A stretch of DNA of 24,829 nt, taken from a virus. The position numbers and the translations under genes were made by a program. The stretch lies in IMG/VR virus record IMGVR_UViG_3300037189_012624, positions 1 through 24,829 of that record, one strand, 5' to 3'. The notes under the pieces are model-generated. The model made no database searches and was not told the origin of the DNA. It saw nothing but the letters and a program-made list of their open reading frames with translations. Below, one piece after another: positions 1,137 through 23,766 of this stretch. Positions within the stretch are counted from its first letter, which is position 1; every line of letters begins with the position of its first letter.

Positions 1137-1139
1137 TTG

Positions 1140-9385: not shown

Positions 9386-10306
9386 ATGTCAGACGAACTT
9401 GAGAGAGACCCCTTCTCAAAACCTGAGTTGGAATTACCAGATGTCCAAATCGACACCCCTATCAACCTCAGACCTGACCTCAGCCTCCACGGAATCGAAG
9501 AGACAGACCGTGGCGTATGTCTAGACACATTTGAAAACAGGCAAGCATTGCGTCGAGCGAAGTTCAACTGGCTTCCTGTCTACGCCCTTAATGGCGTTCC
9601 TACTGGTTTGATTCAAGCACTGTCTCCTGAGATGCAATCTCAACAGCGTCTACTTTCTCTTGACGAAAAGGTAGCCATCTTGGTCGAACCTGATGATAAA
9701 AATTCTGATTATATAACTGGCTATAACCTAATAGCCGAGTCAGCAGCAGACTACATCGCTCCGCCTTGGGTACTGGGCGCGACACGCGCTTGGGCTAAGC
9801 AACAGAACTCGGGCGATTTAGCGCATGGAAAAAAGGAACTCCCTCTTCCTAAACGCTGTAAAGCAATCAAAGATGATGGCATCAGATGTCAACTCTGGTC
9901 TGGCGGGCGTGGAGCAGATGACGGTCTATGTCGCGTTCACTTGGGCTCACTAAGGAATAAACCTACCGACTCAGTGGAGCGTGCTCGTTCCCGTTTGACA
10001 CAAGCCACCCCCTCCGCCGTTGATGTTCTCGAACAACTTATGGACAACGCAGAGTCCGAACCCGTCAAACTCAAAGCGGCCACCGAAATCCTAGACCGTG
10101 CTGGTATTCGTGCTGGTATCGACATCAATACCGATGTCACTCTCGATGTCCGCCCTGCTGCCTCAATTATTGCTGAGCGTCTACAACGGTTAGCCACAAA
10201 CGCAATTGAAGCGCAGCGGCGTTTCCAAGCGACCCAAGAGCCAGAGACAGTTATAGTAGAAGAACAAGTCGAAGACGCAGAGGTAGTAGAAGATGACGCT
10301 AAGTGA
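9386..10306 (+). CDS. Putative terminase small subunit / DNA-binding protein
   Basis: 306 aa, ATG 9386 with AGAGGA 9 nt upstream. The N-terminal half is unassigned. Residues about 155-195 hold a short Cys/His motif (KRCKAIKDDGIRCQLW, GLCRVHLGS), seen in actinophage DNA-binding proteins. Residues about 205-250 (SAVDVLEQLMDNAESEPVKLKAATEILDRAGI) match the helical ending common in small terminase subunits of such phages, followed by an acidic tail (VIVEEQVEDAEVVEDDAK). A small terminase would recognise the packaging site and load the large subunit, which is not in the window. Other DNA-binding roles remain possible. Its end overlaps the next gene by 14 bp. Confidence 0.6.
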   Translation: MSDELERDPFSKPELELPDVQIDTPINLRPDLSLHGIEETDRGVCLDTFENRQALRRAKFNWLPVYALNGVPTGLIQALSPEMQSQQRLLSLDEKVAILVEPDDKNSDYITGYNLIAESAADYIAPPWVLGATRAWAKQQNSGDLAHGKKELPLPKRCKAIKDDGIRCQLWSGGRGADDGLCRVHLGSLRNKPTDSVERARSRLTQATPSAVDVLEQLMDNAESEPVKLKAATEILDRAGIRAGIDINTDVTLDVRPAASIIAERLQRLATNAIEAQRRFQATQEPETVIVEEQVEDAEVVEDDAK

Positions 10307-10502
10307 AGTAATAGACCAGATGGTCGACCTCACTAACGGACTTCACGAAGATGTCAAACAAGCATCTAATCGCGTCGAGCACATCAGACTGACGGCACGG
10401 GCAAACGAAGCGGTCAACATTCTTCACGACCTTATGCTTCTCCAGGATGACCGAAACCAGGATACGACAGATGACGAAACCAAAACAGCCGACGGCGAGT
10501 GA
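10293..10502 (+). CDS. Small helical protein overlapping terminase-like gene
   Basis: 69 aa, ATG 10293 overlapping the stop of the previous gene, with GAGG upstream in the acidic tail codons. The sequence is helical and polar (LSEVIDQMVDLTNGLHEDVKQA, ANEAVNILHDLMLLQDDRN), ending in an acidic Thr/Asp-rich tail. There is no recognised domain. The next gene starts inside it, so three consecutive genes here overlap and are probably translated in a coupled way. Its last codons include ACGGCGAGT, a near copy of the dispersed ACGGYNNGC word. Confidence 0.6.
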   Translation: MTLSEVIDQMVDLTNGLHEDVKQASNRVEHIRLTARANEAVNILHDLMLLQDDRNQDTTDDETKTADGE

Positions 10503-11247
10503 ACTCCGCGAGCGCTTCATAAATAAAGCATTAGAGTACACGGGATACGAATCACCCAACGGCATGGAAAATATCTTTGGCCAGCGTCGGGGTCTAAACG
10601 GCAAGCCTTGGAACGGTATCTTTATTGATGTCGTCGCTGGAGAAGCGGGTATCCGTTTACCCGTAGCACACACGGTGTCGACGGTAGCCTTGGGGTTCTA
10701 CCTGGGTAGGGGTTTTTTCCATGTAAGACCACGGCGAGGAGATATAGTCTTCCTTCAAACCTCAACGGCAAGCGAGTTCGGCTCGCCACATATAGGTATA
10801 GTAACGGATACCTCACGGCACGCCACTGACGGTATTATACAAACGGTAGAGGGTATGACGGCAAGCCAAAATCAACGGCAAGCGAAAACCCCAACGGGTG
10901 TCTATGTGCGTACCCGTCATCAGTCTGAGGTTATTGGGTATGGTCGCCCAAAATATGTAACGGCAAGCCAATTAGTAGGAAACCTAGACGCCCCAACGGT
11001 GAGCACTGCACAAGTGCGTAAAGGTATGAAGCATAAGAGCATCATTCTGGTACAACTTGCGTTGACGCAAGTGACTGGGATTACTCGTTTCCAAAGAGGG
11101 CACTTTGATACAAAGACCATACTTGCGTACTCAAAGTTCCAAAGAGACATTGGATATGTTGGCATCTCTGCATCTGGTGATGCTGACTTCAATTCATTGA
11201 AACTGTTGGGCGAACTTACTGGGTTCTTCAACGCAAAACAGACATAG
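10471..11247 (+). CDS. Endolysin-like protein: CHAP-type domain plus peptidoglycan-binding tail
   Basis: 258 aa from ATG 10471 (ATG 10447 also possible). Residues about 10-160 follow the plan of CHAP/NlpC-type hydrolases: GKPWNGIFIDVVAGEAGI, then RPRRGDIVFLQTS, SPHIGIVTD (H107) and IQTVEG. At the place of the catalytic Cys in the usual PWC motif this protein has Asn48. Residues about 181-258 resemble a peptidoglycan-binding helical domain (VRKGMKHKSIILVQLAL, GHFDTKTILAYSKFQRDIGY). It could be a non-canonical or inactive cell-wall protein, or a virion-associated one. The gene holds seven exact ACGGYNNGC words, read as TAS or TVS codons, far denser than its neighbours. Confidence 0.75.
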   Translation: MTKPKQPTASELRERFINKALEYTGYESPNGMENIFGQRRGLNGKPWNGIFIDVVAGEAGIRLPVAHTVSTVALGFYLGRGFFHVRPRRGDIVFLQTSTASEFGSPHIGIVTDTSRHATDGIIQTVEGMTASQNQRQAKTPTGVYVRTRHQSEVIGYGRPKYVTASQLVGNLDAPTVSTAQVRKGMKHKSIILVQLALTQVTGITRFQRGHFDTKTILAYSKFQRDIGYVGISASGDADFNSLKLLGELTGFFNAKQT

Positions 11248-11670
11248 CACGAGGCAGCGACATTTATTTTTGACGCATAATTCCTTATGTTATTCCGGGT
11301 TCCCAGGGTCCCAGGGAAGTTCGGGAAATCGGGAAATGTAACAAATTCATAACGGCTTATGCTTTTAACTTGACAAACGGCAAAAACGACTTTAGACTAT
11401 GTCCCATAGTCTAAAGCGAAAAACTGATACATTTCCCCCGGATTCCCAGTAAACATAAGGAATCGACGGCACGGCTAGAATCCTCAAAATTTTTATAATA
11501 AACTCTTATGCTTTAGTGCTGCGAACGGAACCCGCACGAACGCGCGGAAACGGCGAGCGCTTTCCTCAACGGCGAGCGGGTTCCCTCTTTTTCCATGTGC
11601 ATGGAAAAACGGCTAGCCTGGTGAACGGCTTGCGTTATAGACTAAGAACGGCAAGCGATGACGGCGTGCC
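11248..11670 (+). other. Structured, word-rich intergenic region
   Basis: 423 bp without a convincing gene. It holds nested inverted repeats: ATTCCTTATGTT (11280-11291) with AACATAAGGAAT (11452-11463); GGGAAATGTA (11331-11340) with TACATTTCCC (11428-11437); and centrally CTTTAGACTATG (11390-11401) with CATAGTCTAAAG (11405-11416). TTGACA (11370-11375) with TAGACT (11393-11398) at 17 bp forms a strong promoter whose -10 lies inside the central palindrome. From 11550 to 11669 there are six ACGGYNNGC words and a perfect TTTTTCCATG/CATGGAAAAA inverted repeat (11588-11609). Candidates: replication origin, regulatory RNA or operator. Confidence 0.6.
11370..11416 (+). promoter_or_regulatory. Promoter with -10 inside a 12-bp-arm palindrome
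   Basis: TTGACA at 11370-11375, a 17-bp spacer and TAGACT at 11393-11398. The -10 box lies in the left arm of a perfect palindrome (12-bp arms, 3-bp loop, 11390-11416). A protein bound there would block transcription, or the transcript would start inside the hairpin. No gene with a ribosome site follows closely. Confidence 0.6.
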
Positions 11671-11940
11671 ATGTCGAAGAGAAAGATAACGGATATGGAT
11701 TTTGAGGACTGGTTGAAGATTGGGTATGACAACGGGTGGGTTGGTGCCCCCGTATGTGACACACATGACGGCGTGCCAATGACGGCAAGCGAAGAGAAAG
11801 AATTTGAAGAGGGAGACCCGTGTATCAACATACTGCGTCTGTACTCAACGGTAGAGGAAAAGATGCAGGTAGAAGAGAACCACTCTCCATCTGTTTGGCG
11901 TGCAAGTAACCGTGGACTTGGTATCTCAGAACTGGAATAA
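11671..11940 (+). CDS. Conserved phage hypothetical protein (DFEDWLKIG...WVGAPVCDTHDG)
   Basis: 89 aa of a type I recognise as common in actinophages: MDFEDWLKIGYDNGWVGAPV, CDTHDGVPMTASEEKEFEEGDPC, INILRLYST. Two Cys and one His (CDTH, DPC) may bind metal. No function is known. There is no Shine-Dalgarno; the ATG instead follows directly after two ACGGYNNGC words (11648-11656 and 11661-11669), the second one base before the start codon. Two more copies lie inside the gene at 11768 and 11782, encoding part of GVPMTAS. How translation starts here is unclear. Confidence 0.75.
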   Translation: MSKRKITDMDFEDWLKIGYDNGWVGAPVCDTHDGVPMTASEEKEFEEGDPCINILRLYSTVEEKMQVEENHSPSVWRASNRGLGISELE

Positions 11941-11982
11941 ATTCCCAAAATCACACATCTCGTGATGTTTTATGATAAACCT

Positions 11983-12192
11983 ATGAGACACATTGAGATG
12001 CACCTGATAGAAAATAGCAAGGATGTTCAGTCAGCAAATACTGTTGGACTGGAAGTTGACCCTAACGAAACTTGCGAAGAATGTTTCGAGGCTGTTGGCG
12101 AGGTAAATGGAACCTTTGTTCCTTTCGTCTTGCTCCTCGATGACGAGGCAGAGTGGGTTGTTTGCGCTGAGTGCGCGAGTCCTGTGCTCTAA
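11983..12192 (+). CDS. Small CxxC/CxxC zinc-ribbon-like protein, possibly leaderless
   Basis: 69 aa from ATG 11983 (GTG 11962 and ATG 11965 are alternatives). The sequence has two CxxC pairs (ETCEECFEAVGEVNG and EWVVCAECASPVL) framing a hydrophobic beta segment (TFVPFVLLLDD), the layout of a small zinc ribbon. TATGAT at 11971-11976 lies 6 nt before ATG 11983, so a transcript would begin at or next to the start codon. There is no Shine-Dalgarno and no clear -35. A long terminator follows. Confidence 0.65.
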   Translation: MRHIEMHLIENSKDVQSANTVGLEVDPNETCEECFEAVGEVNGTFVPFVLLLDDEAEWVVCAECASPVL

Positions 12193-12208
12193 CTCCTGAG
12201 GTCCCTCC

Positions 12209-12272
12209 ACCTGGGCTGCTCTTTTTTCCATGCAGAGATGTTGCATGGAAAAAGCGCAGACCCGGGTTTTTT
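12209..12272 (+). terminator. Long intrinsic terminator with CCATGCA/TGCATGG stem
   Basis: ACCTGGGCTGCTC followed by TTTTTTCCATGCA pairs almost completely with TGCATGGAAAAAG followed by CGCAGACCCGGGT (arms 12209-12234 and 12242-12267, loop GAGATGT), ending in a run of six T (12267-12272). It closes the unit ending at 12192. The upper stem is the TTTTTCCATGC word met elsewhere in the window. Confidence 0.8.
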
Positions 12273-12337
12273 GCTTCTGACGCGATTCTCTTTTTGCTTA
12301 TGTTCTTCCGGGATGGGCTTCTCGAAGATTTCGCTGT

Positions 12338-12378
12338 GAGCGAACAAACTTGACATTGGGAATAATTTACGAAACAAT
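12338..12378 (+). promoter_or_regulatory. Promoter for the 12418 gene
   Basis: TTGACA (12350-12355) begins the shared block TTGACATTGGGAATAA; AACAAT (12373-12378) sits 17 bp downstream as a weak -10. GAGCGAACAA (12338-12347) directly upstream recurs before the TTGACATT promoters at 17139 and 19824. Confidence 0.6.
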
Positions 12379-12417
12379 CTAGTTATCAGTAGTATGACAA
12401 ATGACAAAGGAGACGCA

Positions 12418-12651
12418 ATGTCCACACCAAAGTATCCACACATCAAGGTGACTACCCACCATCGAGCAACTGACCCTATGGCAGTTCTTATGGCAGTGTC
12501 GCACGCAATGAAAGACGCTGGGGTTCCGACCTCTGACTGCATCGAGTATCTCGACAATGTCATGGGTATCATTCAGAATAGTGAGACCAATGCAAAGCGA
12601 GCAGTCGCTGTAGCAAAGGAATCACTCAAGTGGGTAGCACTCACTGATTAA
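12418..12651 (+). CDS. Hypothetical protein
   Basis: 77 aa from ATG 12418, chosen over ATG 12394 because AAAGGAGA lies at the right distance. It is helical (AVLMAVSHAMKDAGVPTSD, NAKRAVAVAKESLKWVAL) after a His-rich N-terminus (YPHIKVTTHHRATDP), and has a single Cys. No known family. It is a single-gene unit with its own promoter at 12350 and is followed by another promoter at 12720. Its stop is followed by a weak CACTGA/TCAGTG hairpin with no T-tract. Confidence 0.75.
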   Translation: MSTPKYPHIKVTTHHRATDPMAVLMAVSHAMKDAGVPTSDCIEYLDNVMGIIQNSETNAKRAVAVAKESLKWVALTD

Positions 12652-12719
12652 ATGTCAGTGGGTGTCTATACACTCAAAAGAGTCAAGCAACACGCCAAAA
12701 AAGATTTTTGGAAATGTAC

Positions 12720-12797
12720 TTGACAAGCGATTGAATCTATGGTTCAATTTCTAATAACAACAAAAAACAGTGTTCTAACTAAGGAGACCAAAACACT
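12720..12797 (+). promoter_or_regulatory. Promoter and hairpin leader of the 12798 gene
   Basis: TTGACA (12720-12725), 17 bp, TTCAAT (12743-12748); ATTGAA/TTCAAT arms flank the spacer. AGTGTT (12769-12774) pairs with AACACT (12792-12797), placing the AAGGAG site in the loop and the base of the stem directly against the ATG at 12798. Confidence 0.6.
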
Positions 12798-13301
12798 ATG
12801 AACGCAAAGACAGAAAAGGACTGCGCTGGCAAGGCGCTGTACCTAGAGTTCCGCAAGGAGAACTACACCTATCAGGTGATAGTAACTCCACCTGCCATCG
12901 ATGTCGAGGGCAACTATGTTCCTGCTAGCGTGATGGAACGACGCATTTCGTCGTGGCATCCTCGTCGCAACTGGAACTTCAGTTCGATTCCGACTAACGC
13001 AGAGTTCGCTATTCAGCGCACTGCTGTTGGTGGATTCGAGCAACTAGATGTAGAGACTGCTCAACACAAAGGTGCGCAGCACATCAATCGTCTGCTTGCT
13101 CGCACACTAGACTCTCTCTTCCACAAGGGTTGGACTTTGTTCCAGCAAGCAGTGGCAGTAGAGACCACTTACAAAGACTTGGAACTAATCAAGTCTGGTA
13201 AGACTTCCAATGACCTTGTTCGACGCATCGAGCGTTCACGCAAGTCATTTGGATTCCCAGATGCTTTGTTCGCAGAGCCAGTCGTAGCACCAGTAGCGTA
13301 A
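12798..13301 (+). CDS. Hypothetical protein upstream of MoxR-like ATPase
   Basis: 167 aa, ATG 12798 with AAGGAGA upstream. The first half is beta-rich (ALYLEFRKENYTYQVIVTPPA, SSWHPRRNWNFSSIP), the second helical (HINRLLARTLDSLFHKGWTLF, DLVRRIERSRKSFGF). No catalytic motif and no match to a family I know. It lies 21 bp before the AAA+ gene with no visible terminator between, so it may share its transcript and work with it. It ends in an Ala/Val/Pro-rich tail (AEPVVAPVA). Confidence 0.75.
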   Translation: MNAKTEKDCAGKALYLEFRKENYTYQVIVTPPAIDVEGNYVPASVMERRISSWHPRRNWNFSSIPTNAEFAIQRTAVGGFEQLDVETAQHKGAQHINRLLARTLDSLFHKGWTLFQQAVAVETTYKDLELIKSGKTSNDLVRRIERSRKSFGFPDALFAEPVVAPVA

Positions 13302-13322
13302 TTAGTTAGGAGACCATACATT

Positions 13323-14348
13323 ATGACTACACCAATCGCAGGAACCCCACAAGCGTGGGTCGCTGACCAAGTTCGTTTCAACGCGAACCTACCTACTCTG
13401 CTCAACGCAGTTGTAGGACAGACTCTCAACTCAGTTGTTGCGTCTGACCTTAACCTTGTATTTGACGACAAAACCGGGAAAGCAGTTATTCGCAATCGCG
13501 ATGGCGCTGCCCCAGCGAGGAACAAGATGAAAGCAGTCGATGCTCTTGAGGGCGAGGCATTTTACTTACGACCAAATGGTCACAAGTATTTCACTCGTGC
13601 TTGGGGTCAGCACACTGATGTTGAGGTTGCTCGCAACCAGCGCATCAGCGAGCGCGGAAAATCCATCTTGCTCTATGGCGCACCGGGCACTGGCAAGACT
13701 GCTATGTTCGAGGGCGCTTTTGGCGACGAACTAATCACTGTTCTCGGAACTGGCGACACTGAAGTTGGCGACCTTGTTGGTGGCTATGTTCAGACAATCG
13801 CTGGTGGATTCGAGTGGGTCGATGGTCCACTTGTCCAAGCAGCAGAGCAGGGTAAAGTCTTGCTCATTGACGAGATTGGTCTGATTGACCCTAAGGTCTT
13901 GTCTGTTGTTTATGGCTTGATGGATGGTCGTAAGGAACTCAAAGTAACTGCTAACCCTGAGCGAGCAATCGTAAAGGCGAAAGATGGTTTCTTTGTAGTT
14001 GCTGCGACTAACCCTAACGCGCCGGGAGTTGTTCTCTCTGAGGCACTTCTATCTCGTTTCGGAATCCAAGCAGAAATGACAACTGACTGGACACTCGCAA
14101 CCAAGTTGGGAGTTCCATCACTCGCTGTTACTTGCGCTCAGAACCTTGCAAAAAAGCAGAAGAGCGATGAAGTTTCTTGGGCGCCGCAGATGCGTGAACT
14201 CTTGGACTTCAGAGACATTGCTGAAGACCTTGGAACTGAGTGGGCTATCAGCAACTTGATTGCTCAAGCACCTTTCGAGGACAGGGCAATCGTGGCAGAT
14301 GTCTTCACTCGCGTGTTCGCGATGGAAGTAAAGCCAGCCAAAATCTAG
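13323..14348 (+). CDS. MoxR-family AAA+ ATPase
   Basis: 341 aa, ATG 13323 with AGGAG 10 nt upstream. The N-terminal about 110 residues are unassigned. The AAA+ core has Walker A GAPGTGKT (119-126), Walker B VLLIDEIG (179-186), sensor-1 AATNP (227-231) and arginine-finger region LLSRF (242-246), with GDTEVGDLVGGY between them. This is the MoxR/CbbQ type, which couples ATP hydrolysis to remodelling of a partner, usually encoded beside a VWA-domain protein. The next gene is exactly such a VWA protein. The target in phages is unknown; a role in remodelling virion or host complexes is inference. A GGGAGTGGG/CCCACTCCC hairpin follows. Confidence 0.9.
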   Translation: MTTPIAGTPQAWVADQVRFNANLPTLLNAVVGQTLNSVVASDLNLVFDDKTGKAVIRNRDGAAPARNKMKAVDALEGEAFYLRPNGHKYFTRAWGQHTDVEVARNQRISERGKSILLYGAPGTGKTAMFEGAFGDELITVLGTGDTEVGDLVGGYVQTIAGGFEWVDGPLVQAAEQGKVLLIDEIGLIDPKVLSVVYGLMDGRKELKVTANPERAIVKAKDGFFVVAATNPNAPGVVLSEALLSRFGIQAEMTTDWTLATKLGVPSLAVTCAQNLAKKQKSDEVSWAPQMRELLDFRDIAEDLGTEWAISNLIAQAPFEDRAIVADVFTRVFAMEVKPAKI

Positions 14349-14383
14349 GTCTCCCCTAATCGAGATTTTGGTTGTAACAAGGG

Positions 14384-14413
14384 GGGAGTGGGTTGACGAA
14401 AGTCCCCACTCCC
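14384..14413 (+). terminator. GC-rich hairpin after AAA+ gene
   Basis: GGGAGTGGG (14384-14392) pairs perfectly with CCCACTCCC (14405-14413). A T-tract is missing and an A-run follows, so termination may be partial or factor-dependent, allowing some read-through to the VWA gene. Confidence 0.5.
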
Positions 14414-14438
14414 TCTCAAAAAAACTTGGGGAATAAAC

Positions 14439-14467
14439 TTGACAAAACTTTAGTTATACCTAATAAT
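14439..14467 (+). promoter_or_regulatory. Promoter of VWA gene
   Basis: TTGACA (14439-14444), 17-bp spacer, AATAAT (14462-14467). Upstream is GGGAATAAAC, the sequence also found immediately before the -35 boxes at 24236 and, as AATAAAC, at 17514 and 19931. Confidence 0.75.
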
Positions 14468-14497
14468 AGATGTAACGACAAAAGAAAGGCGACTCAA

Positions 14498-16378
14498 ATG
14501 AGCCACCACACACTTAACTCTCGACCAGTAGGTCGCGTAGATTACGCTTGGCTAGGCGTGAACGCTAGCGTTGGCAAACTTGTCAACCAGTGGTCACTGC
14601 GCCAAGACCTAGTAGTCGCGCTCGCCGAAGTCACCACCATTGGCGCACCTGCTTGTTTCAATCCTGCGAGCGCAGAGATTGAAGTATCAATCCCTAAGGC
14701 TTTTGGTGCTGGCATCACTCCAGACCAAGTTGGCGAAATGACTCTTCGTAAGAATCAACTCAAGCACGCTGTTGGTGCTGGTGCGATTTACCACGAGGCA
14801 CTTCACGCTCGCGTATCGCGCTGGTCATTAGAGCAAGCACACAAAGACCTAAGCGCTCGCGAACTCCGATTCATCAACGCGATGGAAGAGTCTCGCATCG
14901 AATACTGGGGCTGTGTCTTCCTACCAAAGAATCGTTCACTGCTACGCGCTTGTGCGATTGAAATTGTTATGGATGAACTTGACGAGCAAGCCAAGAATGT
15001 TTCCAAGGTTGACGCTGCTGCGTTCCTTGCTCTACTAACTTTGGCTCGCGTTGACGCTGGCGTTCTTGACAAGCGCGACATCGTTGACTCAGTTCAGGAA
15101 ATCATCTCTGAAGTTTTGAGCGACGAAGTTGTTGCTAAGTTGCGCGAAGTGTGGAAAGACTTCCAGACTCACGACGACCACGCTAACGCTCTTCCACTCT
15201 ACGACCTAACTCGCGAGTTCCTAAAGATTCTCGACGAGCGCAAGGAAGAGACTGGCGAAGACGAGGGTCAAGAGCCAGAGGGCGGTTGTGAAAAGCCGGG
15301 TGGCGAGGGTGGAGAGCCGGGAACTGGAACTGGTAAGGGTCAACCTACACCAGAGCAGATTGAAGAGTTCAAGGACTTCATCGAAAAAGTCAAAGAGGCA
15401 GTCAAGGAAAACCAAGAGGCAGTCAATGTTTCTAACCAGACTGAACTCGACGACGAAATCGAAACTGAAGAGCGCAAGGAAGAAGTCGAGGCTCACAACG
15501 AGGCTAAGCAAATGCGCGACGAGCGCAAGGACTTGGCTGACAAGGTGTTCAACCAAGACGATGCTATTGGTTCTCATGTTTCTGGTGAGAAGACTCGCTC
15601 TCGTCTGATTGACACTCGTCTTCCAACTGGCGAAGAACTTGCTAGCGCGAACAAGATTGCTAACGCTCTGCGTAAAGCAAAATACCGCGAGCGCTCTCAG
15701 ACTCGTATCGCCAGCGTTGTGCCTCCGGGTCGTCTGCGCTCACGCGCTTTCATTCAGGGTCAAGCACAAAAGGCTCGTGGCATCAACGCACCAGTCGAGG
15801 CTTGGCGCACAACCAAGCGCAAGACCACTGAAGACCCAACTCTAAATGTTGGAATCATCGTGGACATCTCTGGTTCGATGAAGTCAGCAATGACTCCAAT
15901 GGCTATCACTGCTTGGGTTATGAGCGAGGCTGTTCGCCGAGTTCAGGGCAAGGCTGCGATGGTCTACTGTGGTCAAGATGTATTCGCCACTCTAAAGCCG
16001 GGAAAGCGTCTGAGCAAGGTTTCGACCTACTCCGCGTCTGACTCAACTGAAGAGTTTGACAAGGCGTTCAAGGCTCTTGATGGTGCGATGAACCTGACTC
16101 ACGCTGACGGTGCGAAGTTGCTTGTGGTCGTCTCTGACGGACACTACCGCTCTGACCAGAAAGACCACGCTCGCAAGTTGCTACGCGACGCTGACAAGAA
16201 CGGTGTCGCAATCTTGTGGCTAACTTTCGATGGCAAGGTAAGCGAGCCATCGGACTTGCTCAAGGGAACTGCGGGCAAGGTTGTTGACCTGAAGTCAACG
16301 GAGTCGCCAACCACCGCGTCTGCCATCATCGGAGACGCAGCGGCTAAGGCTCTATCGGCTATCGGCTCGCGGGTCTAA
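14498..16378 (+). CDS. VWA-domain protein with HEXXH motif, partner of MoxR ATPase
   Basis: 626 aa from ATG 14498, with AGAAAGG upstream; the longer frame from 14393 crosses the promoter and is rejected. Residues 99-103 are HEALH followed by HARVSRW and, about 30 residues on, AMEESRIE, a zincin-like arrangement common in phage and bacterial VWA partners. Residues about 250-400 are acidic and low in complexity (GEDEGQEPEGG, EGGEPGTGTGKGQP), probably flexible. The VWA domain starts near 449 with the MIDAS motif DISGSM (D456, S458, S460) and later VVVSDGHY (D about 546). CobT-like and MoxR-associated proteins share this plan. Peptidase activity is unproven; the HEXXH may be structural. Confidence 0.85.
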   Translation: MSHHTLNSRPVGRVDYAWLGVNASVGKLVNQWSLRQDLVVALAEVTTIGAPACFNPASAEIEVSIPKAFGAGITPDQVGEMTLRKNQLKHAVGAGAIYHEALHARVSRWSLEQAHKDLSARELRFINAMEESRIEYWGCVFLPKNRSLLRACAIEIVMDELDEQAKNVSKVDAAAFLALLTLARVDAGVLDKRDIVDSVQEIISEVLSDEVVAKLREVWKDFQTHDDHANALPLYDLTREFLKILDERKEETGEDEGQEPEGGCEKPGGEGGEPGTGTGKGQPTPEQIEEFKDFIEKVKEAVKENQEAVNVSNQTELDDEIETEERKEEVEAHNEAKQMRDERKDLADKVFNQDDAIGSHVSGEKTRSRLIDTRLPTGEELASANKIANALRKAKYRERSQTRIASVVPPGRLRSRAFIQGQAQKARGINAPVEAWRTTKRKTTEDPTLNVGIIVDISGSMKSAMTPMAITAWVMSEAVRRVQGKAAMVYCGQDVFATLKPGKRLSKVSTYSASDSTEEFDKAFKALDGAMNLTHADGAKLLVVVSDGHYRSDQKDHARKLLRDADKNGVAILWLTFDGKVSEPSDLLKGTAGKVVDLKSTESPTTASAIIGDAAAKALSAIGSRV

Positions 16379-16518
16379 CGGCTCGCGTAGGGGGTGGGCT
16401 TGCGTAAACGGCAAGCCTACCTCTATAATAGAAACACGGTAAGCCTAACGGCTCGCCTAAGAGACAAAGAGACGGCGTGCGTAAACGGCACGCCATAGAG
16501 AGATAAAGGAGATTGACG
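16378..16518 (+). repeat. Cluster of six ACGGYNNGC words
   Basis: Exact copies start at 16378, 16408, 16436, 16448, 16472 and 16485, all on the plus strand, packed in 116 bp between the VWA gene and the next gene; the first overlaps the VWA stop codon. A TATAAT at 16424-16429 with TTGCGT 18 bp upstream could be a promoter inside the cluster. Spacing between copies is irregular (12-30 bp start to start), unlike a CRISPR array. Confidence 0.75.
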
Positions 16519-16923
16519 GTGGGTCAGTATCACATTTTAGTAAACCTAGATAAGCAGGAGTGGGTAGACCCTCACGGCTTAGGTCTGGGGTCAAAGCAAT
16601 ACGAACACGCTGGGTTCGAGGCATCGCTAGCAGACGCTATGTATGTTCTAGTTATGTCGAGTCCTGCTGGTGGTGGTGGAGACTTTCCTCACACTGACAT
16701 TTCAGGTCGTTGGGTTGGAGACAGAGTTGTGATTGTGGGAGACTACACTCACAAAGACGCTATCCCCGGAATCACTGGGGCTGATGCGATTTACTCGTTG
16801 GCTCAAGCCCAGTATGGAAACATAACTCCTGAGGTTCGCACTGCTTTCGAGAAGATTTTCAACATTGCCTATGGCACAAAAGAAGTTGGGACTCACACTT
16901 TTTGGAGTCGAGTTCTAGCGTAA
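16519..16923 (+). CDS. Conserved hypothetical protein (MGQYHILVNLDK family)
   Basis: 134 aa. GTG 16519 is chosen because AGGAG (16507-16511) is 7 nt upstream; TTG 16513 would be only 1 nt away. The start MGQYHILVNLDKQEWVDPHGLG and the block GRWVGDRVVIVGDYTHKD match a family I recall from Streptomyces and actinophages with no known function. A Gly-rich loop (SSPAGGGGDFPH) precedes the conserved core. The gene has its own terminator, and the ACGG word cluster lies in front of it. Confidence 0.8.
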   Translation: MGQYHILVNLDKQEWVDPHGLGLGSKQYEHAGFEASLADAMYVLVMSSPAGGGGDFPHTDISGRWVGDRVVIVGDYTHKDAIPGITGADAIYSLAQAQYGNITPEVRTAFEKIFNIAYGTKEVGTHTFWSRVLA

Positions 16924-16940: not shown

Positions 16941-16969
16941 CCCCTCAGCAATGAGGGGTTTATTTTTTT
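16941..16969 (+). terminator. Intrinsic terminator
   Basis: CCCCTCA (16941-16947) pairs with TGAGGGG (16952-16958) over a 4-nt loop, followed by TTTATTTTTTT. It ends the unit of the gene at 16519-16923. Confidence 0.9.
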
Positions 16970-17120
16970 CCACGCGAGGCGCATGGAAAAAGATAGAACC
17001 TGTGAAAATAGGGTTGCCTATTTTTCCATGCAGGATGCTGACGCATCTCGCGCTTCGCGCTCAACGCTTATGCGATAACTTTTGCTGATGGGATACTCCT
17101 GTTCTCTCAGGGCGAACAAG
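16963..17120 (+). other. Intergenic region with TTTTTCCATGC words
   Basis: No gene seen. A TTTTTTTCCACGC/GCATGGAAAAA imperfect inverted repeat (16963-16991) overlaps the preceding T-tract. A second word is GGGTTGCC followed by TATTTTTCCATGC (ending 17031). GCGC-TTC-GCGC forms a short hairpin near 17050, and GGCGAACAAG (17111-17120) precedes the next promoter. Confidence 0.6.
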
Positions 17121-17513: not shown

Positions 17514-17581
17514 TTGACATTCGGGAATAAATACTGAATAATCATAGTTGTAGTTATTATAGAAGTTCTCTTGAAGGGAGA
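17514..17581 (+). promoter_or_regulatory. Promoter and SD hairpin of 17586 gene
   Basis: TTGACA (17514-17519), 17 bp, AATAAT (17537-17542). In the leader, TCTCTT-GAA-GGGAGA (17567-17581) can fold so that the Shine-Dalgarno is paired. The same element occurs at 18287, 24275 and 24526. Confidence 0.7.
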
Positions 17582-17585
17582 CAAA

Positions 17586-18217: not shown

Positions 18218-18236
18218 AAACTTAGGCGTGTTGGGC

Positions 18237-18301
18237 TTGACAAATGTCAGCCCAGCGCCCTATACTAAATAAGTAATAATAAAAGTTCTCTTGAAAGGAG
18301 A
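18237..18301 (+). promoter_or_regulatory. Promoter with TGACA-AA-TGTCA operator and SD hairpin
   Basis: TTGACA (18237-18242), 18 bp, TATACT (18261-18266). The -35 forms the left arm of TGACA-AA-TGTCA (18238-18249). The leader holds TCTCTT-GAA-AGGAGA (18287-18301), 8 nt before ATG 18310. Confidence 0.8.
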
Positions 18302-18309
18302 CTCGCCTT

Positions 18310-18717
18310 ATGGCAAACTACTACGAATCAGCACGCACCAACTACTTCTTGGTCAAGGACATTGACGCGTTCAAGAAAGAACTTGAAATGGTCAAGTCTC
18401 TTGAAGTGTGTGTCGAACACAAGAACCTGAAAGATTATGTCTGCTTACTCGCTGACAGCGAGAGTGGATTTGCTTTCGACTACTACGACGACAGCCTAGA
18501 AGATTACATTGAAATCGACTGGGAAGGCATTTTCAAAAAGCACCTACAAGACGACTCAGTGGCAATCATCATTGGCTCTGGTTCTGAGAAACTCCGCTAC
18601 ATTCGTGGATACGCTTTTGCGTTCAACAGCAAGGGCGAGACCAAGTTCCTCAGTCTTGACGACATCTACGAAATGGCTAAGCCTCTTGGCTCAGACATTC
18701 AGAAAGCAGAATACTAA
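18310..18717 (+). CDS. Hypothetical protein
   Basis: 135 aa, ATG 18310 downstream of a strong promoter and a structured ribosome site. It is acidic and mixed alpha/beta (DIDAFKKELEMVKSLEVCVE, DYYDDSLEDYIEIDWEGIF, VAIIIGSGSEKLRYIRGYAF). It lacks membrane spans and metal motifs. No family recognised. It is followed at 2 bp by a short CxxC gene, with which it probably forms a two-gene unit. Confidence 0.75.
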   Translation: MANYYESARTNYFLVKDIDAFKKELEMVKSLEVCVEHKNLKDYVCLLADSESGFAFDYYDDSLEDYIEIDWEGIFKKHLQDDSVAIIIGSGSEKLRYIRGYAFAFNSKGETKFLSLDDIYEMAKPLGSDIQKAEY

Positions 18718-18718
18718 G

Positions 18719-18949
18719 ATGGCTGACTTTTACTTCGCCAGTGATGGCTCTTATGGAAGTGCCGAGGGTATGGAAGTCCACGACACTGACAACTGGACTG
18801 ACGCAATGTGGCAGGAGATTGAAGAGGCGACAGACAATCGTCGCCCATCACTCTCCGACCACTTCGCCGAGAACAAGCACGAACTAGATGGCGACAAGCA
18901 GTGCGTCGAGTGTGGTCTTGGTGGCTCTGACTTGCCACCTAAGGACTAA
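18719..18949 (+). CDS. Small acidic CxxC protein
   Basis: 76 aa from ATG 18719, two bases after the upstream stop; the longer open frame from 18509 lies antiphase within the upstream gene and is not real. The protein starts MADFYFASDGSYGSAEGMEV, is acidic, and ends HELDGDKQCVECGLGGSD, giving one CxxC with nearby His. No known function. There is no clear Shine-Dalgarno, so translational coupling to the upstream gene is likely. Confidence 0.7.
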   Translation: MADFYFASDGSYGSAEGMEVHDTDNWTDAMWQEIEEATDNRRPSLSDHFAENKHELDGDKQCVECGLGGSDLPPKD

Positions 18950-18957
18950 ACTCACTC

Positions 18958-18999
18958 TTGACAGCAAGAGCCACCTACCCTACACTTGTAGGTAGGTGG
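18958..18999 (+). promoter_or_regulatory. Promoter with -10 inside a long palindrome
   Basis: TTGACA (18958-18963), 17 bp, TACACT (18981-18986). The -10 lies in CCACCTACCCTACA (18971-18984), which pairs with TGTAGGTAGGTGG (18987-18999) with one bulge. CTCTTG/CAAGAG also flanks the -35. The hairpin may instead act as a weak terminator of the previous unit, but it lacks a T-tract. Confidence 0.6.
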
Positions 19000-19072
19000 T
19001 TACTTGCTACCAAAACACCACTTTTCAAAGTGATGTAAAATGATTTATAGAAAAAGAAAGAAGGTTTCCGAA

Positions 19073-19321
19073 ATGGAAAAGTTCACAATCGTCGCACAAG
19101 TGCGATTCGACATTGAAGATGTCGACCTAGCAAGAGCAAATCGTCAGGCAATGGCATCTATTGCTCTACTAACCAAGGGCGTCAACCCAATGGAAGACGA
19201 ATACCCCAACCTAAATGCGCCTTATTCAATCGCTGGGGATTACTCAATCCTTGACGAAGATGGCAAAGTCTTGAAAAAGAGTAGCCACGCAGAAGAAGAA
19301 GACGCACCAAAAGCAGACTAA
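19073..19321 (+). CDS. Hypothetical acidic protein
   Basis: 82 aa from ATG 19073, with AAGAAGG about 7 nt upstream; ATG 19040 has no site. The protein begins MEKFTIVAQVRFDIEDVDLA, with a helix (ARANRQAMASIALLTKG) and an acidic C-terminus (SHAEEEDAPKAD). It has no Cys and no span. It sits before the ClgR-like regulator at 30 bp with no terminator between them, so the two may be co-transcribed from the promoter at 18958. Family unknown. Confidence 0.7.
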   Translation: MEKFTIVAQVRFDIEDVDLARANRQAMASIALLTKGVNPMEDEYPNLNAPYSIAGDYSILDEDGKVLKKSSHAEEEDAPKAD

Positions 19322-19351
19322 ACCCTGCCCTAACGAAAGACAAAAAGACAA

Positions 19352-19645
19352 ATGAATCTAGCAATCGCTCTTGGCGACTCGATTCGCGTTATGCGAATGG
19401 AAAAAAGTATGACCCTGCGTGACCTAAGCGCTAAGTCACACATCTCGCTGGGCTACCTTTCCGAAGTAGAACGAGGCACGAAAGAAGTGTCCTCCGTTGT
19501 TTTGGATTGTGTTGCTCAGGGGCTTGATGTTCCTCTTTATGTAATCATTGAAGAGGCTTCACGCAAGATGCGCGACTCCGAAGAGTTCAACTACATCACA
19601 CGAAGTGTTGAACTTGACCACATGGAAAAAGTTCTAGTCTGGTAA
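19352..19645 (+). CDS. ClgR-like XRE-family transcription regulator
   Basis: 97 aa, ATG 19352. Residues about 6-62 form a Cro/C1-type helix-turn-helix: LGDSIRVMRMEKSMTLRDLS, then HISLGYLSEVERGTKEVSSV and DCVAQGLDVPL. SLGYLSEVERGxKE is the recognition-helix signature of actinobacterial ClgR and related regulators, which control Clp proteases and stress genes. A phage copy could redirect host proteolysis or regulate phage promoters such as the TGACA/TGTCA family. The C-terminal tail (ASRKMRDSEEFNYITRSVEL) is short. The family call is strong; the target is unknown. Confidence 0.9.
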   Translation: MNLAIALGDSIRVMRMEKSMTLRDLSAKSHISLGYLSEVERGTKEVSSVVLDCVAQGLDVPLYVIIEEASRKMRDSEEFNYITRSVELDHMEKVLVW

Positions 19646-19661
19646 AGCATAGGAGAAAATG

Positions 19662-19799
19662 ATGAATACATTACTGATGTTGTCCAACGAATCCACTGTT
19701 GAAATAAACCTGCTCGCTGAGAGCAAGGAACTATTCGACCTAATCAAAAAGAACACACCTTACGCCGAACTTCTGGCTTGGGTGAACGAGAACTTCTAG
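19662..19799 (+). CDS. 45-aa hypothetical protein
   Basis: ATG 19662 has AGGAG 6 nt upstream (ATG 19659 is only 3 nt away). It reads MNTLLMLSNESTVEINLLAE, continues with a helix (SKELFDLIKKNTPYAELLAW) and ends at TAG 19797. It follows the regulator by 16 bp and precedes two promoters. The good ribosome site and composition like its neighbours support it; no family is known. Confidence 0.6.
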   Translation: MNTLLMLSNESTVEINLLAESKELFDLIKKNTPYAELLAWVNENF

Positions 19800-19808
19800 T
19801 TCTCTCAC

Positions 19809-19960
19809 AGCGAACAAGAAACTTTGACATTTCGGAATAAAATGTCTTTGTATCGTGTTATAGTTTATGTATCAAGCAAATGCGAGATACAGGGTCTCAA
19901 AAGGCGTTATCAAGTTGTTATCTAATAAACTTGACAAATGTCAGAGGGATACCCTAAGGT
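19809..19960 (+). promoter_or_regulatory. Tandem promoters of the 20021 gene
   Basis: First: AGCGAACAAG (19809-19818), then TTGACA (19824-19829) in TTGACATTTCGGAATAAA with arms GACATTT/AAATGTC. Second: TTGACA (19931-19936), 18 bp, TAAGGT (19955-19960), with TGACA-AA-TGTCA over the -35 and AATAAAC upstream. A 31-codon frame from about 19869 lies between them but has no ribosome site. Confidence 0.6.
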
Positions 19961-20020
19961 AGTAAGTATCAGGTCAAAAGATTTGATAAATGACACAATG
20001 ACTAGAAAGAGGTGAGGTCA

Positions 20021-20344
20021 ATGGCAAAAGCGCTGACCCCAACTATCAAAGGCAAGACAGTCGAACTTGGTTTCGACGCTGAGGCACGCGAGGCTCTACG
20101 AGTCTTCAAGGAGTCTCTACAAATCAAGAAAGACGCTGACAAGGCTAAGGCTGAGGCAGAGGCTGTTCTTCGTGCAAAACTAGGCGACGCCGAGTTCGCA
20201 ACTATCAGTGGCTCAATCAACTTCAAGATTGCTAAGGTCTCGAAGATGAACCCTGACCTTGCTAAGTTGCTCGCAGAGTTTCCTGCGGTCTACGAGGCGA
20301 TTATGGTCGACGGCTCTTACGACTTCATCAAGACCGTCAACTAG
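20021..20344 (+). CDS. Small coiled-coil protein, resembles C-terminus of YqaJ-type recombination proteins
   Basis: 107 aa from ATG 20021, with AGAGGTGAGG upstream. The first half is helical and charged (DAEAREALRVFKESLQIKKD, ADKAKAEAEAVLRAKLGDAE); the second (ATISGSINFKIAKVSKMNPD, LAKLLAEFPAVYEAIMVDGS) follows the order seen at the end of phage YqaJ-like exonucleases (Gly-turn, strand, Asp-Leu-x-x-Leu, F/HPxxYE). The nuclease core is absent, so this would be a stand-alone accessory domain. The resemblance is from memory and weak. It has two promoters and is followed by heavily structured non-coding DNA. Confidence 0.65.
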   Translation: MAKALTPTIKGKTVELGFDAEAREALRVFKESLQIKKDADKAKAEAEAVLRAKLGDAEFATISGSINFKIAKVSKMNPDLAKLLAEFPAVYEAIMVDGSYDFIKTVN

Positions 20345-20352
20345 CACACAGA

Positions 20353-20550
20353 CTTGACGGGTGCGGTGTCCCCAAACACACCGCCTCGTCAACCTGCTGG
20401 TTATGAGTGATAACAAGTAACCGCTACGGTAGCCCGTAGCGACCAGCACGGCGAGTCGTATCCGATTCAATCCCCCCATTGCCTAACGGATACGGCTCGC
20501 CTCCATAAGCACCCCCCAACTTACCTAATGTGGTAGGTCGGGGGGTTCTT
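20353..20550 (+). ncRNA. Candidate structured RNA with three-way junction
   Basis: Directly after the 20021 gene the sequence folds into successive elements. TTGACG...CGTCAA encloses GCGGTGT/ACACCGC (20353-20391). TGCTGGT (20394-20400) pairs with ACCAGCA (20442-20448), partly overlapping an inner GTTAT/ATAAC hairpin and enclosing CGCTACGG/CCGTAGCG (20422-20441), like a three-way junction. GGCGAGTCGTATCCG (20450-20464) pairs with CGGATACGGCTCGCC (20487-20501), one G-U pair. CCCCCC...GGGGGG with inner CTTACC/GGTAGG (about 20512-20546) ends as a terminator with a poor T-tract. No tRNA T-loop is present and the junction is too short for a tRNA. Confidence 0.5.
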
Positions 20551-21131
20551 ACTTTAACGGCTAGCCCTTGACGGACAAACGGCAAGCGCAAACGGCAAGC
20601 GTGTAATAGATAAATCTTTATGCCCTAACGGATAAGCCCCGAAGAGATTGACGGGTCGTGTTTATAGGAGAGGTGGGTAAATGCCAACGGTAAGCATCTG
20701 AGGAGAAATGGAAGAGAGGAAAAGCGTAAGGAGATGCAGAGGGAAAAATAGGGAGGTAGGTCTTTCCATGCAGATGCGAAGAGGAGAAAGACGAGATGCA
20801 GGAAGCGAAGGCGCATGGGGGAAAAGCATAAGAGATAAAGGAAAAGATGCAGAGGAACAAATCACATTGCGAGGAAGAAAGTTATTCGCGTCTGAGGCAA
20901 AGTTTTTCGCAAGATGCGTGCATGGAAAAACATGGGACTTGACTTTTTTGGATTTCTGTTTTTTGGATTTCTTTGATTTCTTTTTTCGAGTCGAACTTTC
21001 TTATGTTTTATTTTTGTCATCTGAGTCATCAAATCTTGTTCGCTCAGAGCAAACAAATAAATCTAATGTATTAGGAAGAAAATGTCTGTCCACTAGGTTA
21101 TTATTTATGTAGGCAATGGGAGGTGATTATT
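20551..21131. other. Non-coding region of dispersed words
   Basis: About 580 bp without a convincing gene. It has four ACGGYNNGC words (20557, 20579, 20592, 20687), a purine-rich stretch (20697-20900) with repeated GATGCAG, GAGGA and GCATAAG, CTTTCCATGC (20762-20771), GCATGGAAAAA (20920-20930), and a tandem 14-bp repeat TTTTTTGGATTTCT (20944-20957 and 20959-20972). TTCGA-G-TCGAA is near 20985, and CTTGTTCGCT (21035-21044) is the reverse of the GCGAACAAG element. The open frame at 20708 is a by-product of purine richness. Confidence 0.55.
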
Positions 21132-21278
21132 ATGAAAACAAAAGTCTGGATTCACAACAGATTTGATGGCTCTAACAAAGTCATTGAGTTTGATGATTTC
21201 TGGGTTGCTCGTCAGTGGGTTGAGAACTTCAACTCAGACTGCGACCTACCATTCCACGCTTCAATAGAGGCAGAGTGA
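21132..21278 (+). CDS. 48-aa hypothetical protein
   Basis: ATG 21132 follows GGGAGGTGA at good distance. The frame reads MKTKVWIHNRFDGSNKVIEF and ends FHASIEAE before TGA 21276. An aromatic, acidic centre (DDFWVARQWVENFNSDCD) suggests a small folded protein. No family is known. It is well separated from the preceding non-coding zone; the strong ribosome site supports it. Confidence 0.65.
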   Translation: MKTKVWIHNRFDGSNKVIEFDDFWVARQWVENFNSDCDLPFHASIEAE

Positions 21279-21336
21279 ACCTGCGACCTGAGCAAGTCCT
21301 AAAACTGCTCACACACAAAACTACATAGGAGACAAA

Positions 21337-21573
21337 GTGCCAAAAAGAAAACTAGAACTCGACAGAGAAGTTATCGACTACACATTGGAGATTCTCGCAG
21401 AGATTCTTCACGCAAGTCAGCAGATTGAAGAAATCGCAAAACAGCGTGGGAAAAAAGTTCCAAAGAAGTTCGAGCGCAAAGTCGGAAAAGTTCTGATTGC
21501 CCACATGATGTTGAGCAAAGCAAATCGAGAAGTCGAAGTTGCTGAACTTGAAGAAATGTTCAATCGAGAATAA
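21337..21573 (+). CDS. Small basic helical protein
   Basis: 78 aa from GTG 21337, with AGGAG (in ATAGGAGAC) 7 nt upstream. Almost wholly helical and charged: REVIDYTLEILAEILHASQQ, then EEIAKQRGKKVPKKFERKVG and an acidic end. The basic centre may bind nucleic acid, but no helix-turn-helix signature is clear. Followed 17 bp later by an intrinsic terminator. Function unknown. Confidence 0.7.
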   Translation: MPKRKLELDREVIDYTLEILAEILHASQQIEEIAKQRGKKVPKKFERKVGKVLIAHMMLSKANREVEVAELEEMFNRE

Positions 21574-21590
21574 AACTGAAAAAAGAAATG

Positions 21591-21619
21591 CACCTCAGGG
21601 AACTGAGGTGTATTTTTTT
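21591..21619 (+). terminator. Intrinsic terminator
   Basis: CACCTCAG (21591-21598) pairs with CTGAGGTG (21603-21610) over a 4-nt loop and is followed by TATTTTTTT. A CTTTCCATGC...GCATGGAAAAA inverted pair (21643-21684) lies just beyond. Confidence 0.9.
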
Positions 21620-21734
21620 ATCTTTTTTAGTGGGTTGCCAATCTTTCCATGCGCTTCCCTTTTAGCCTCCGGGGCATGGAAAAACACACCACCCCGGTCT
21701 GCATCTTCTTCCTCAAAAAACTTTGCTGAAATGC

Positions 21735-21762
21735 TTGACAAAAGACTTGCGTTTGGTATCCT
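21735..21762 (+). promoter_or_regulatory. Promoter of membrane protein gene
   Basis: TTGACA (21735-21740), 16-bp spacer, TATCCT (21757-21762). It lies about 45 bp before the ATG at 21807. Confidence 0.55.
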
Positions 21763-21806
21763 TGCTATGTGGGTTGATTGACTCACGCTTTCGATTGGAG
21801 ATTGAA

Positions 21807-22046
21807 ATGGAAATCAAGTTCGTAGTTCGTAGATTCTTTGCTGGGTTACTGACGCTACCTTTTGCGCTCGCGGGATACTTTGTCGCATACGCGTTGTTGG
21901 TAATGCTAGGCACAGGTCCTATTGGTTCGTGGCGAGACCCTGTTGCCAACTTCCCACTCATCTCGTTTGTGTGGATGTTGTTCTGGGTGTTCCTGCCTAT
22001 CATCTGGCGTTTCGCTGGGGCAGAGGGACAGAGCGTAAAGAAGTAG
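21807..22046 (+). CDS. Small membrane protein with two spans
   Basis: 79 aa from ATG 21807, with TTGGAG upstream; the longer frame from 21723 crosses the promoter. Two hydrophobic segments, residues about 11-36 (GLLTLPFALAGYFVAYALLV) and about 52-68 (LISFVWMLFWVFLPIIW), are separated by a short loop with GTGPIGSWRDP. The N-terminus is basic and the C-terminus short and charged. It could be a holin, a superinfection or host-envelope factor, or another small phage membrane protein; sequence does not decide. Confidence 0.75.
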   Translation: MEIKFVVRRFFAGLLTLPFALAGYFVAYALLVMLGTGPIGSWRDPVANFPLISFVWMLFWVFLPIIWRFAGAEGQSVKK

Positions 22047-22066
22047 AAAAAGTTTTACGACACGCC

Positions 22067-22096
22067 TTGACAAATGTCGGGGCGTTGTCGTATACT
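22067..22096 (+). promoter_or_regulatory. Promoter with GACA-AA-TGTC over -35
   Basis: TTGACA (22067-22072), 18 bp, TATACT (22091-22096), nearly identical in its first 12 bases and -10 to the promoter at 18237. Confidence 0.8.
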
Positions 22097-22134
22097 TTAT
22101 CTTGTTGGAACTTTTATTTTAGGAGATGATGCAA

Positions 22135-22596
22135 ATGACCAACTTTTCACCTGCGAGCGAGCGCCAAGTCTCGTTCCTACAATCACTACTCGCCGAGCGC
22201 GACAACGCTCTCGTAGTCGAGTTCGCGGGGCTTACCTCAAAGCAAGCCTCAGAGTTCATTGGAACTCTCATCAACGCACCTAAGCGTGTCGCTGGCGTTC
22301 GCGCTGACTTCCCTGTCCTTGAAGGTATGTATCGCGACAACGCGGGAATCATCTACAAGGTTCAGGCATCACGCGAGACAGGTCGCCTCTACGCCAAGCA
22401 CCTCGATGTCGCCGAGCGCAAGTTCGAGTTCGAGGCTGGGGCTATGCGCCACCTCACCGCCGAGATGCGTATGACCATTGCCGAGGCTAAGGCTTTCGGT
22501 GTTGAATACGGTTTCTGCGTTGTGTGCGGTAAGTTCCTTACCGACGCTCGTTCCGTTGCTGACGGAATCGGTCCTGTCTGTGCGAGGAAAGTCTAA
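22135..22596 (+). CDS. Protein with C-terminal zinc-finger motif (DUF6011-like)
   Basis: 153 aa from ATG 22135, 9 nt after AGGAG; ATGs at 22126 and 22129 are too close to the site. The N-terminal part (SERQVSFLQSLLAERDNALV, TSKQASEFIGTLINAPKRV) is helical. The C-terminus FCVVCGKFLTDARSVADGIG followed by PVCARKV is the CxxCGxxLTDxxSxxxGxGPxC signature I associate with DUF6011-type zinc modules common in actinobacteria and their phages. The central part is basic/aromatic (GIIYKVQASRETGRLYAKHL). Possibly nucleic-acid binding. The stop overlaps the next start as TAATG. Confidence 0.8.
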   Translation: MTNFSPASERQVSFLQSLLAERDNALVVEFAGLTSKQASEFIGTLINAPKRVAGVRADFPVLEGMYRDNAGIIYKVQASRETGRLYAKHLDVAERKFEFEAGAMRHLTAEMRMTIAEAKAFGVEYGFCVVCGKFLTDARSVADGIGPVCARKV

Positions 22597-22745
22597 TGGG
22601 CGCGACACGGACAGAGCCGAAGTCGGTCTGCTGTAACGCCGACTACCTTTGGTTGCGGTGCGACGAGTGCGACGAGTCGGTCAACGAGGGCGAGGGACAC
22701 GACTTCGCCACCTGCTCTTCGTGCGGTGCTGACATAGACGACTAA
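22596..22745 (+). CDS. 49-aa zinc-ribbon protein
   Basis: ATG 22596 overlaps the TAA of the preceding gene. The frame reads MGATRTEPKSVCCNADYLWL, then RCDECDESVN and ATCSSCGADIDD, ending at TAA 22743. Two CxxC pairs plus an N-terminal CC make a classic small zinc ribbon. It is followed 13 bp later by a strong terminator, so the pair 22135/22596 forms one unit. Function unknown. Confidence 0.75.
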   Translation: MGATRTEPKSVCCNADYLWLRCDECDESVNEGEGHDFATCSSCGADIDD

Positions 22746-22758
22746 CGGCACGGATAAG

Positions 22759-22790
22759 CCCCCGCTGGATAACGGCGGGGGTTTTCTTTT
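22759..22790 (+). terminator. Intrinsic terminator
   Basis: CCCCCGC (22759-22765) pairs with GCGGGGG (22775-22781) over a 9-nt loop, followed by TTTTCTTTT. The loop end contains an ACGGC word. Confidence 0.9.
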
Positions 22791-23766
22791 ACCCTGACGG
22801 CTGGCACGGAACACGGTTCGCTTGTTCTGACGGCTGGGCTTGTATAGACAGACGGCTAAGGGTTGACGGCTGGCTTGTATAAGCAAACGGCAAGTCCTAA
22901 CGGCTTGGGTTTTATCGGTATGTAGGTAAGCACACCCAAGCCCAACGGTGAGTGTTTTTTGAGTGGTATGTATGTAGGCGTGGAAACCATTGACGGTGAC
23001 TCTTTTTGGAAGGAATCGTAGATGGAAGCAAATGCAGTGGAAGGTGCGAAAAGCATAAGAAGGCTCATCAAAAGCATAAGAGGCTGTGAAGAAGCGAAAA
23101 AGAGGGAAGGTTTGATGAGTTCAGAAGAAAAAGTGTGGGAAATCAAATCAGGTTGGCTGTTTTTCCTTGTTTTGCAGAAAGAAAGAGTTTTCCTGCTGAG
23201 GAAGACGCATGGAAAATTTAAGGACTTGACTTTTATGCACGCATCAGGATTTCTAAAACTTATGAACTTCTGAGGAAAAAGTCTTTCTTCTGAGGCAATG
23301 TGCGTTGTAAAACGCGTTGAAGGTAGGCTTTGCAGAGCCTTTCTGGGTCGAAAACCTGAAGAGTGGGCTATTCCTCGCTAAAACTTGACTTTCTGAGGAA
23401 AATGTGTGGGAACTTTTTTCTGGAAAATGCAGAGGAAGCAAACAGGTGGCCAGTTTTTCCATGCGCCTTATGTTTTATTTATTCAGTTTGGGACCTCAGG
23501 CATCAGAACTTTCTTGTTTTTCTGACGAGGAAGCAGGTTCGCGAAGGCTCATCTGCAAATAAAAACATAAAGACTATGTAATAACGCAACCAGGTCATCA
23601 CGCTTCTCTGCATTTGTCAAGTTTTTTTGCAGGTTTGTCCCAATGTGTATAGTTTTTCGCGATTTCTTTACAGATTCCTCATCAGGTCGAACAAGTGTTC
23701 GAGAAGCAGGACTCCTCTGCTGACCGGGTGGCCGATTTTTCCATGCTGGGAGGTTGGCTATTGGGC
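22791..23766. other. Large non-coding region of dispersed words
   Basis: Nearly 1 kb without a supportable gene. The left part has three exact ACGGYNNGC words (22797, 22813, 22866) and several near copies to 22994. The middle is rich in GCATAAG, GAGGAA and TCTGAGG(A/C)AA (about 23262, 23290, 23393), and holds GCATGGAAAA (23207) and TTTTTCCATGC (23454-23464, 23736-23746), the last two preceded by GGTGGCC. TTGACTTT occurs at about 23224, 23385 and 23767. AGGCT/AGCCT (about 23325-23340) and TCGAAC-AAGT-GTTCGA (about 23688-23703) are short hairpins. The frames at 23022 and 23363 look spurious. Confidence 0.55.

Follow-up and report, generated by a model that had tools for sequence, protein, structure and literature searches.

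The 24,829-nucleotide stretch of DNA analysed here (the window), a fragment of the virus record IMGVR_UViG_3300037189_012624, carries a real polar nucleotide signal at a genome end placed by homology: a short word with the plus-strand core RACGG, gathered into islands that begin inside a gene predicted to encode a small terminase (terS, 9386..10306). Our best explanation, a tentative one, is that the islands are a recognition array for TerS-directed packaging or terminus processing, placed where a long terminal repeat has its left end.

A polar word gathered in islands

The word was first noticed as ACGG(C/T)NNGC. This 9-mer occurs 30 times on the plus strand of the window and never on the minus strand; all 30 starts listed in the first-pass annotation are exact matches and there are no others. 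Dinucleotide-preserving shuffles (300 trials) gave a mean of 2.0 plus-strand copies, with a maximum of 7, and a mean of 1.8 on the minus strand. Positions 1 to 10185 hold no copy, as had been said of the left 10 kb, and the next base is indeed mostly C (14 of 30) or G (11 of 30). Every site lies on the sense strand, so that orientation is fixed relative to transcription. Bare ACGG is also skewed, with 96 plus-strand against 26 minus-strand copies; it commonly has A or G before it and frequently continues as GGC(A/T)NGC(C). The true unit is broader than the 9-mer: the exact counts stand, the 9-mer as the full unit does not, and the core is plus-strand RACGG, of which ACGGYNNGC is a local form.

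The islands all lie on the plus strand and, as previously reported, span both intergenic gaps and coding DNA. Island 1a (10186..10996; 22 ACGG, eight full 9-mers) runs from the 3' end of terS through a 69-amino-acid ORF (10293..10502), which lies between terS and the endolysin gene and contains island words, into the endolysin gene itself (10447..11247; PHROG endolysin phrog_9589, E 5.8e-18). Island 1b (11352..11848; 16 ACGG, eight full 9-mers) covers intergenic DNA and the ORF at 11671-11940, and island 2 (16107..16574; 12 ACGG) covers the 3' end of a VWA/CobT-like gene and the next gap. Island 3 (20310..20687; 13 ACGG) is partly 3' of a terminator-like hairpin at about 20511-20549, and island 4 (22508..22993; 16 ACGG) is mostly 3' of one at 22756-22784. 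Within coding DNA the ACGG sites occupy all three reading frames, which rules out a repeated protein motif as their source; the remaining sites are intergenic. Spacing has a preferred distance of about 14 bases and more peaks at 22 and 36, and is irregular overall; a clean 10.5-base period is absent, and helical phasing was rejected. A tandem-repeat scan and this irregular spacing also bear out the earlier view that the array is not a CRISPR, as long, identical, regularly spaced repeats were not found.

The first-pass annotation had called for a codon-shuffled background, and we permuted synonymous codons within each gene, holding protein and codon usage fixed. In 35 pooled endolysin genes ACGG was the most enriched of the 256 tetramers (446 observed, 305 expected, z 15.7), and its complement CCGT was not enriched (96 observed, 92 expected, z 0.6). 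ACGG also ranked first of 256 in 29 terS genes (204 observed, 150 expected, z 8.2; CCGT z -0.6). These z-scores overstate independence because the lineages are partly related, yet the effect recurs across many of them. ACGG is kept by nucleotide-level selection even within genes. In the ATPase and VWA genes between the islands ACGG is depleted (10 observed, 46 expected). Other words there (GCGG, TCGG, CCGT) are depleted too, and we rejected this desert as a specific signal; it is weak evidence because words containing CGG are generally avoided in those genes.

The terS gene, genome ends and relatives

The gene at 9386..10306 encodes 306 amino acids with an invariant zinc-type motif (Cys158/Cys168/Cys182/His185) and a C-terminal helical domain. 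Its homologues include gene 1 of Microbacterium phages Cece, Big4, Pumpernickel, Zooman and A3Wally, annotated in Cece as terminase small subunit. A profile built from its alignment also finds solved small terminases (7joq, E 5e-4; 6w7t, E 0.036). On this homology and profile match we assign it as terS. Searches of PHROG, Pfam and NCBIfam with this gene gave no matches, and Foldseek with the TerS model gave nothing significant, small terminase 7joq ranking second (E 1.2).

In Pumpernickel, Cece and Big4, 62-63 bp separate the left genome end from the start of terS. The direct terminal repeats of these phages are 19963, 18079 and 17669 bp, respectively, with both ends 100% identical. In all three, terS lies inside the terminal repeat and is followed by the endolysin gene. 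By homology to these isolates, the left end of the present phage is probably near 9.3 kb of the window, which would put the islands within its terminal repeat.

The polar clustering is conserved in relatives. Counted on both strands of whole genomes, as the first-pass annotation had proposed, ACGGYNNGC is concentrated in one 12.9-kb stretch (9.5% of the genome) in each of two 135-kb relatives: 30 plus and 1 minus in G006, with 6 plus and 18 minus elsewhere, and 34 plus and 2 minus in G004, with 10 plus and 16 minus elsewhere. Close relatives retain the islands; individual copies are gained and lost and the ACGG core is kept. In eight close relatives ACGG density rises from 3.0/kb before terS to 29.5/kb at 1.0-1.5 kb past its start, and in 35 other lineages it rises from 3.7 to 14.1/kb when measured from the terS start. 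CCGT in the same profile is flat at about 2-5/kb. In many more distant lineages (ATPase 57-69% identical) plus-strand ACGG is clumped and the minus strand less so; some lineages do not show this.

At this position the cultured Microbacterium phages carry AACCG/ACCG in place of ACGG. AACCG counts on the plus and minus strands are 34 and 2 in Big4, 17 and 4 in Cece, and 20 and 3 in Pumpernickel. ACCG-type words are dense across the endolysin gene of Big4, and the codon-shuffle z of ACCG in the endolysin gene is 3.8 in Big4, 3.0 in Cece and 2.7 in Pumpernickel. CGGG-type words are favoured in lineages L015, L019 and L027. A word that drifts at a fixed place suggests that the site and a phage-encoded reader change together.

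Possible readers of the array

The first-pass annotation suggested a polar signal, such as a translocation, recombination or packaging guide or a protein-binding site. Polarity, clustering and conservation have held up, and of these options a packaging or terminus guide is the best supported, because the array begins in terS, at what is the left terminal-repeat end in the cultured relatives. The islands would be an oriented, degenerate array of short DNA sites, read by a conserved phage packaging or terminus-processing protein, most likely the TerS of this locus, with many copies bound side by side. Their common polarity would tell the terminase the direction of cutting and loading, and specificity would come from density over 1-2 kb and not from one perfect site. 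Islands 2-4 would serve for docking at further points of the repeat, and island 4 may lie close to where it ends on the right. In favour of a TerS or terminus array, the words are oriented, start in terS, peak just inside the presumed left end and recur across hosts.

Several points weigh against it. Islands 2-4 lie 7-14 kb from terS, and the array is long and not compact. TerS and the word are chromosomally linked, and co-inheritance is no proof of binding. The first 6 kb of Arthrobacter phage Racecar, whose TerS is more distant, show no clear array. The structure predicted for TerS is of no more than moderate quality (mean pLDDT 70).

Small-terminase sites of the pac and cos type (P22 pac, SPP1 pac, lambda cosB) resemble the array in being asymmetric recognition sequences tied to packaging initiation. 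In lambda, cosB contains several R sites close to the end that is packaged. In P22 the pac site lies inside the terS gene (PMC9611059). Here too the words sit at terS, at the end where packaging would begin if the homology holds, and they could give direction by their asymmetry (30 plus and 0 minus in the window). However, published TerS sites are compact (PMC9611059), in contrast to the tens of words of 5-9 bases over 1-13 kb seen here. Another actinophage repeat, the 17-bp repeat of Cluster O mycobacteriophages such as Corndog, has more than 30 copies, about one third of them in genes, no assigned function and, like the array, a higher density towards one end (PMC4351075). These repeats are 7-3-7 palindromes without meaningful orientation (PMC4351075), whereas the present word is asymmetric and on one strand.

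A Chi-like signal was considered, in which a helicase-nuclease of host or phage, entering at the linear genome end, would be controlled by the word, so as to protect that end or set off recombination between the repeats. Chi words are short, polar, present in many copies and tolerated in genes. ACGG shares these properties, lies near a physical end in the cultured relatives, and changes between phage groups with different hosts. Chi, however, is spread over host chromosomes; the present words form islands in one phage region and vary by phage lineage, their density rises sharply at terS to reach its peak 1-1.5 kb further in, and the opposite end of Big4 carries no mirror-image word. RACGG is also common to lineages that differ widely in base composition, a point more in keeping with a phage-encoded reader than with one from the host. 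We consider a Chi-like role unlikely.

Somewhat less probable still is a stoperator-like array, at which a phage DNA-binding protein would block RNA polymerase downstream of genes and terminators. The stoperators of Cluster A mycobacteriophages are 13-bp repressor sites, singly dispersed genome-wide and mainly between genes; they are asymmetric, present in dozens of copies and in one orientation relative to transcription (PMC5712189). The sites described here are likewise all oriented with transcription, and in several relatives, too, islands 3 and 4 follow terminator-like hairpins at the ends of genes. Against this, the words are short, form dense islands and not one site per gap, are used heavily within the endolysin and terS coding regions, and are confined to the stretch downstream of terS. 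A limited search identified no repressor or integrase in the window.

The constant use of the sense strand would also suit a word in the transcript, read by an RNA-binding protein, an RNase or an antiterminator. Some ACGG copies of island 2 do pair into hairpins (z -4.3), and there is a conserved RNA-like hairpin in the terS leader. Compared with shuffles, however, the islands are not consistently more folded (z -0.5 to -4.3, with clear structure in island 2 only), and Rfam gave no match. Much of islands 3 and 4 comes after terminator-like hairpins and would be poorly transcribed. An RNA-level signal is improbable on this evidence.

Clustered direct repeats with preferred spacings could be iterons, bound by a replication initiator or a centromere protein. 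The spacing is irregular overall, many sites are inside conserved coding genes, initiator or par genes were not seen beside the islands, and the cumulative GC skew of relatives has no turning point there; we regard iterons as very improbable. That the array simply follows from protein sequence, codon bias or drift towards low complexity, as several other clumped words in relatives do, is hardly credible, since the codon-preserving shuffles, the use of all frames and the intergenic copies exclude it for ACGG. Those other words, in L053, L038 and L033, were rejected as comparable arrays and put down to protein low complexity or coding bias, the regions in L053 and L033 coding for Thr-rich or Asp-rich sequence.

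We did not file the array under TerS sites, stoperators or Cluster O repeats because these are compact, singly dispersed and palindromic, respectively. The searches made found no paper describing such an array. T5 and SPO1 also have linear genomes with long terminal repeats (10-13 kb), like the cultured relatives, and the same scan of these repeats gave no comparable polar word array containing CG. To our knowledge the way in which long terminal repeats are cut and duplicated has no agreed explanation. A recent review calls the recognition of its own DNA by the small terminase unresolved (PMC9611059).

It is possible, though this wider statement is more doubtful, that a large family of actinophages with long terminal repeats marks its genome end not by a single pac or cos site but by a word of 4-5 bases, repeated in a polar array on the kilobase scale through terS and lysis genes under nucleotide-level selection. 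The word would drift with its reader (RACGG, RACCG, CGGG), and specificity would come from density and polarity. A dense, polar, selectable array by terS in culturable Microbacterium phages allows a direct test by synonymous rewriting. It is also a strong nucleotide-level signal hidden in conserved genes and invisible to annotation.

The terS leader and other features

A hairpin with a covarying stem lies just 5' of terS on the plus strand (9317..9369), with CTCTCCCC in its loop at 9340-9347. A leader hairpin with this loop octamer occurs in the same place in 29 of 43 lineages; the stem is 12-24 bp, a count that takes in arms extended beyond the clean stem, and its sequence is lineage-specific. 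In 855 kb of loci the octamer is found only 36 times. G-U wobble pairs in the stem (66) exceed A-C pairs (28), and in 26 of 29 cases the plus strand gives the more stable fold, as an RNA leader would. These features suggest that the hairpin acts as plus-strand RNA, and it may belong to the same system, at the terminus or in control of terS. An Rfam search of the window gave no match to it.

Elsewhere in the window, a MoxR/CobS-like ATPase gene (13323-14348) adjoins the VWA/CobT-like gene (14393-16378), a pair conserved in many actinophages. Two Mom-like DNA-modification genes (5704-6390 and 8014-8706) lie in one region. The palindromes GATC, AGCT and ACGT are missing from all tested regions (5001-10000, islands and deserts), which is expected under restriction avoidance. 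An inverted word, TTTTTCCATGC...GCATGGAAAAA, recurs in intergenic gaps (11580-11612, 12223-12255, 16965-16990, 21645-21685 and 23456-23465), and GCATAAG/CTTATGC words are also frequent. The large terminase of G006, judged from translated sequence, is at 94384-95793.

Other repeats were seen in the phages compared. Tandem terminator-like hairpins AACCCGGGG...CCGGGCTGCCTTTTT and GCGCAACCTGCC repeats stand 3' of the endolysin gene in L015:2000-2760 and L019:1400-2400. DSL-LC01 carries a low-complexity plus-strand CACGC/CACAC array (L095:39000-39900, about 46.0-46.9 kb of the record) in the gap that follows its large-terminase and peptidoglycan-binding genes; we rejected it as a comparable signal, as a separate low-complexity island near TerL. 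The terminal repeat of SPO1 has an oriented TTTTTT cluster with 42 overlapping plus-strand matches in 500 bp (L106:11000-11500). Three Microbacterium phages have a plus-strand G-tract array, e.g. CTAGAGGGGGGGTCT, close to the right-hand end of their terminal repeat (L102:17128-17230, L100:17620-17700 and L098:19430-19520), and GGGGGG occurs 16 times on the plus strand and never on the minus strand in Big4.

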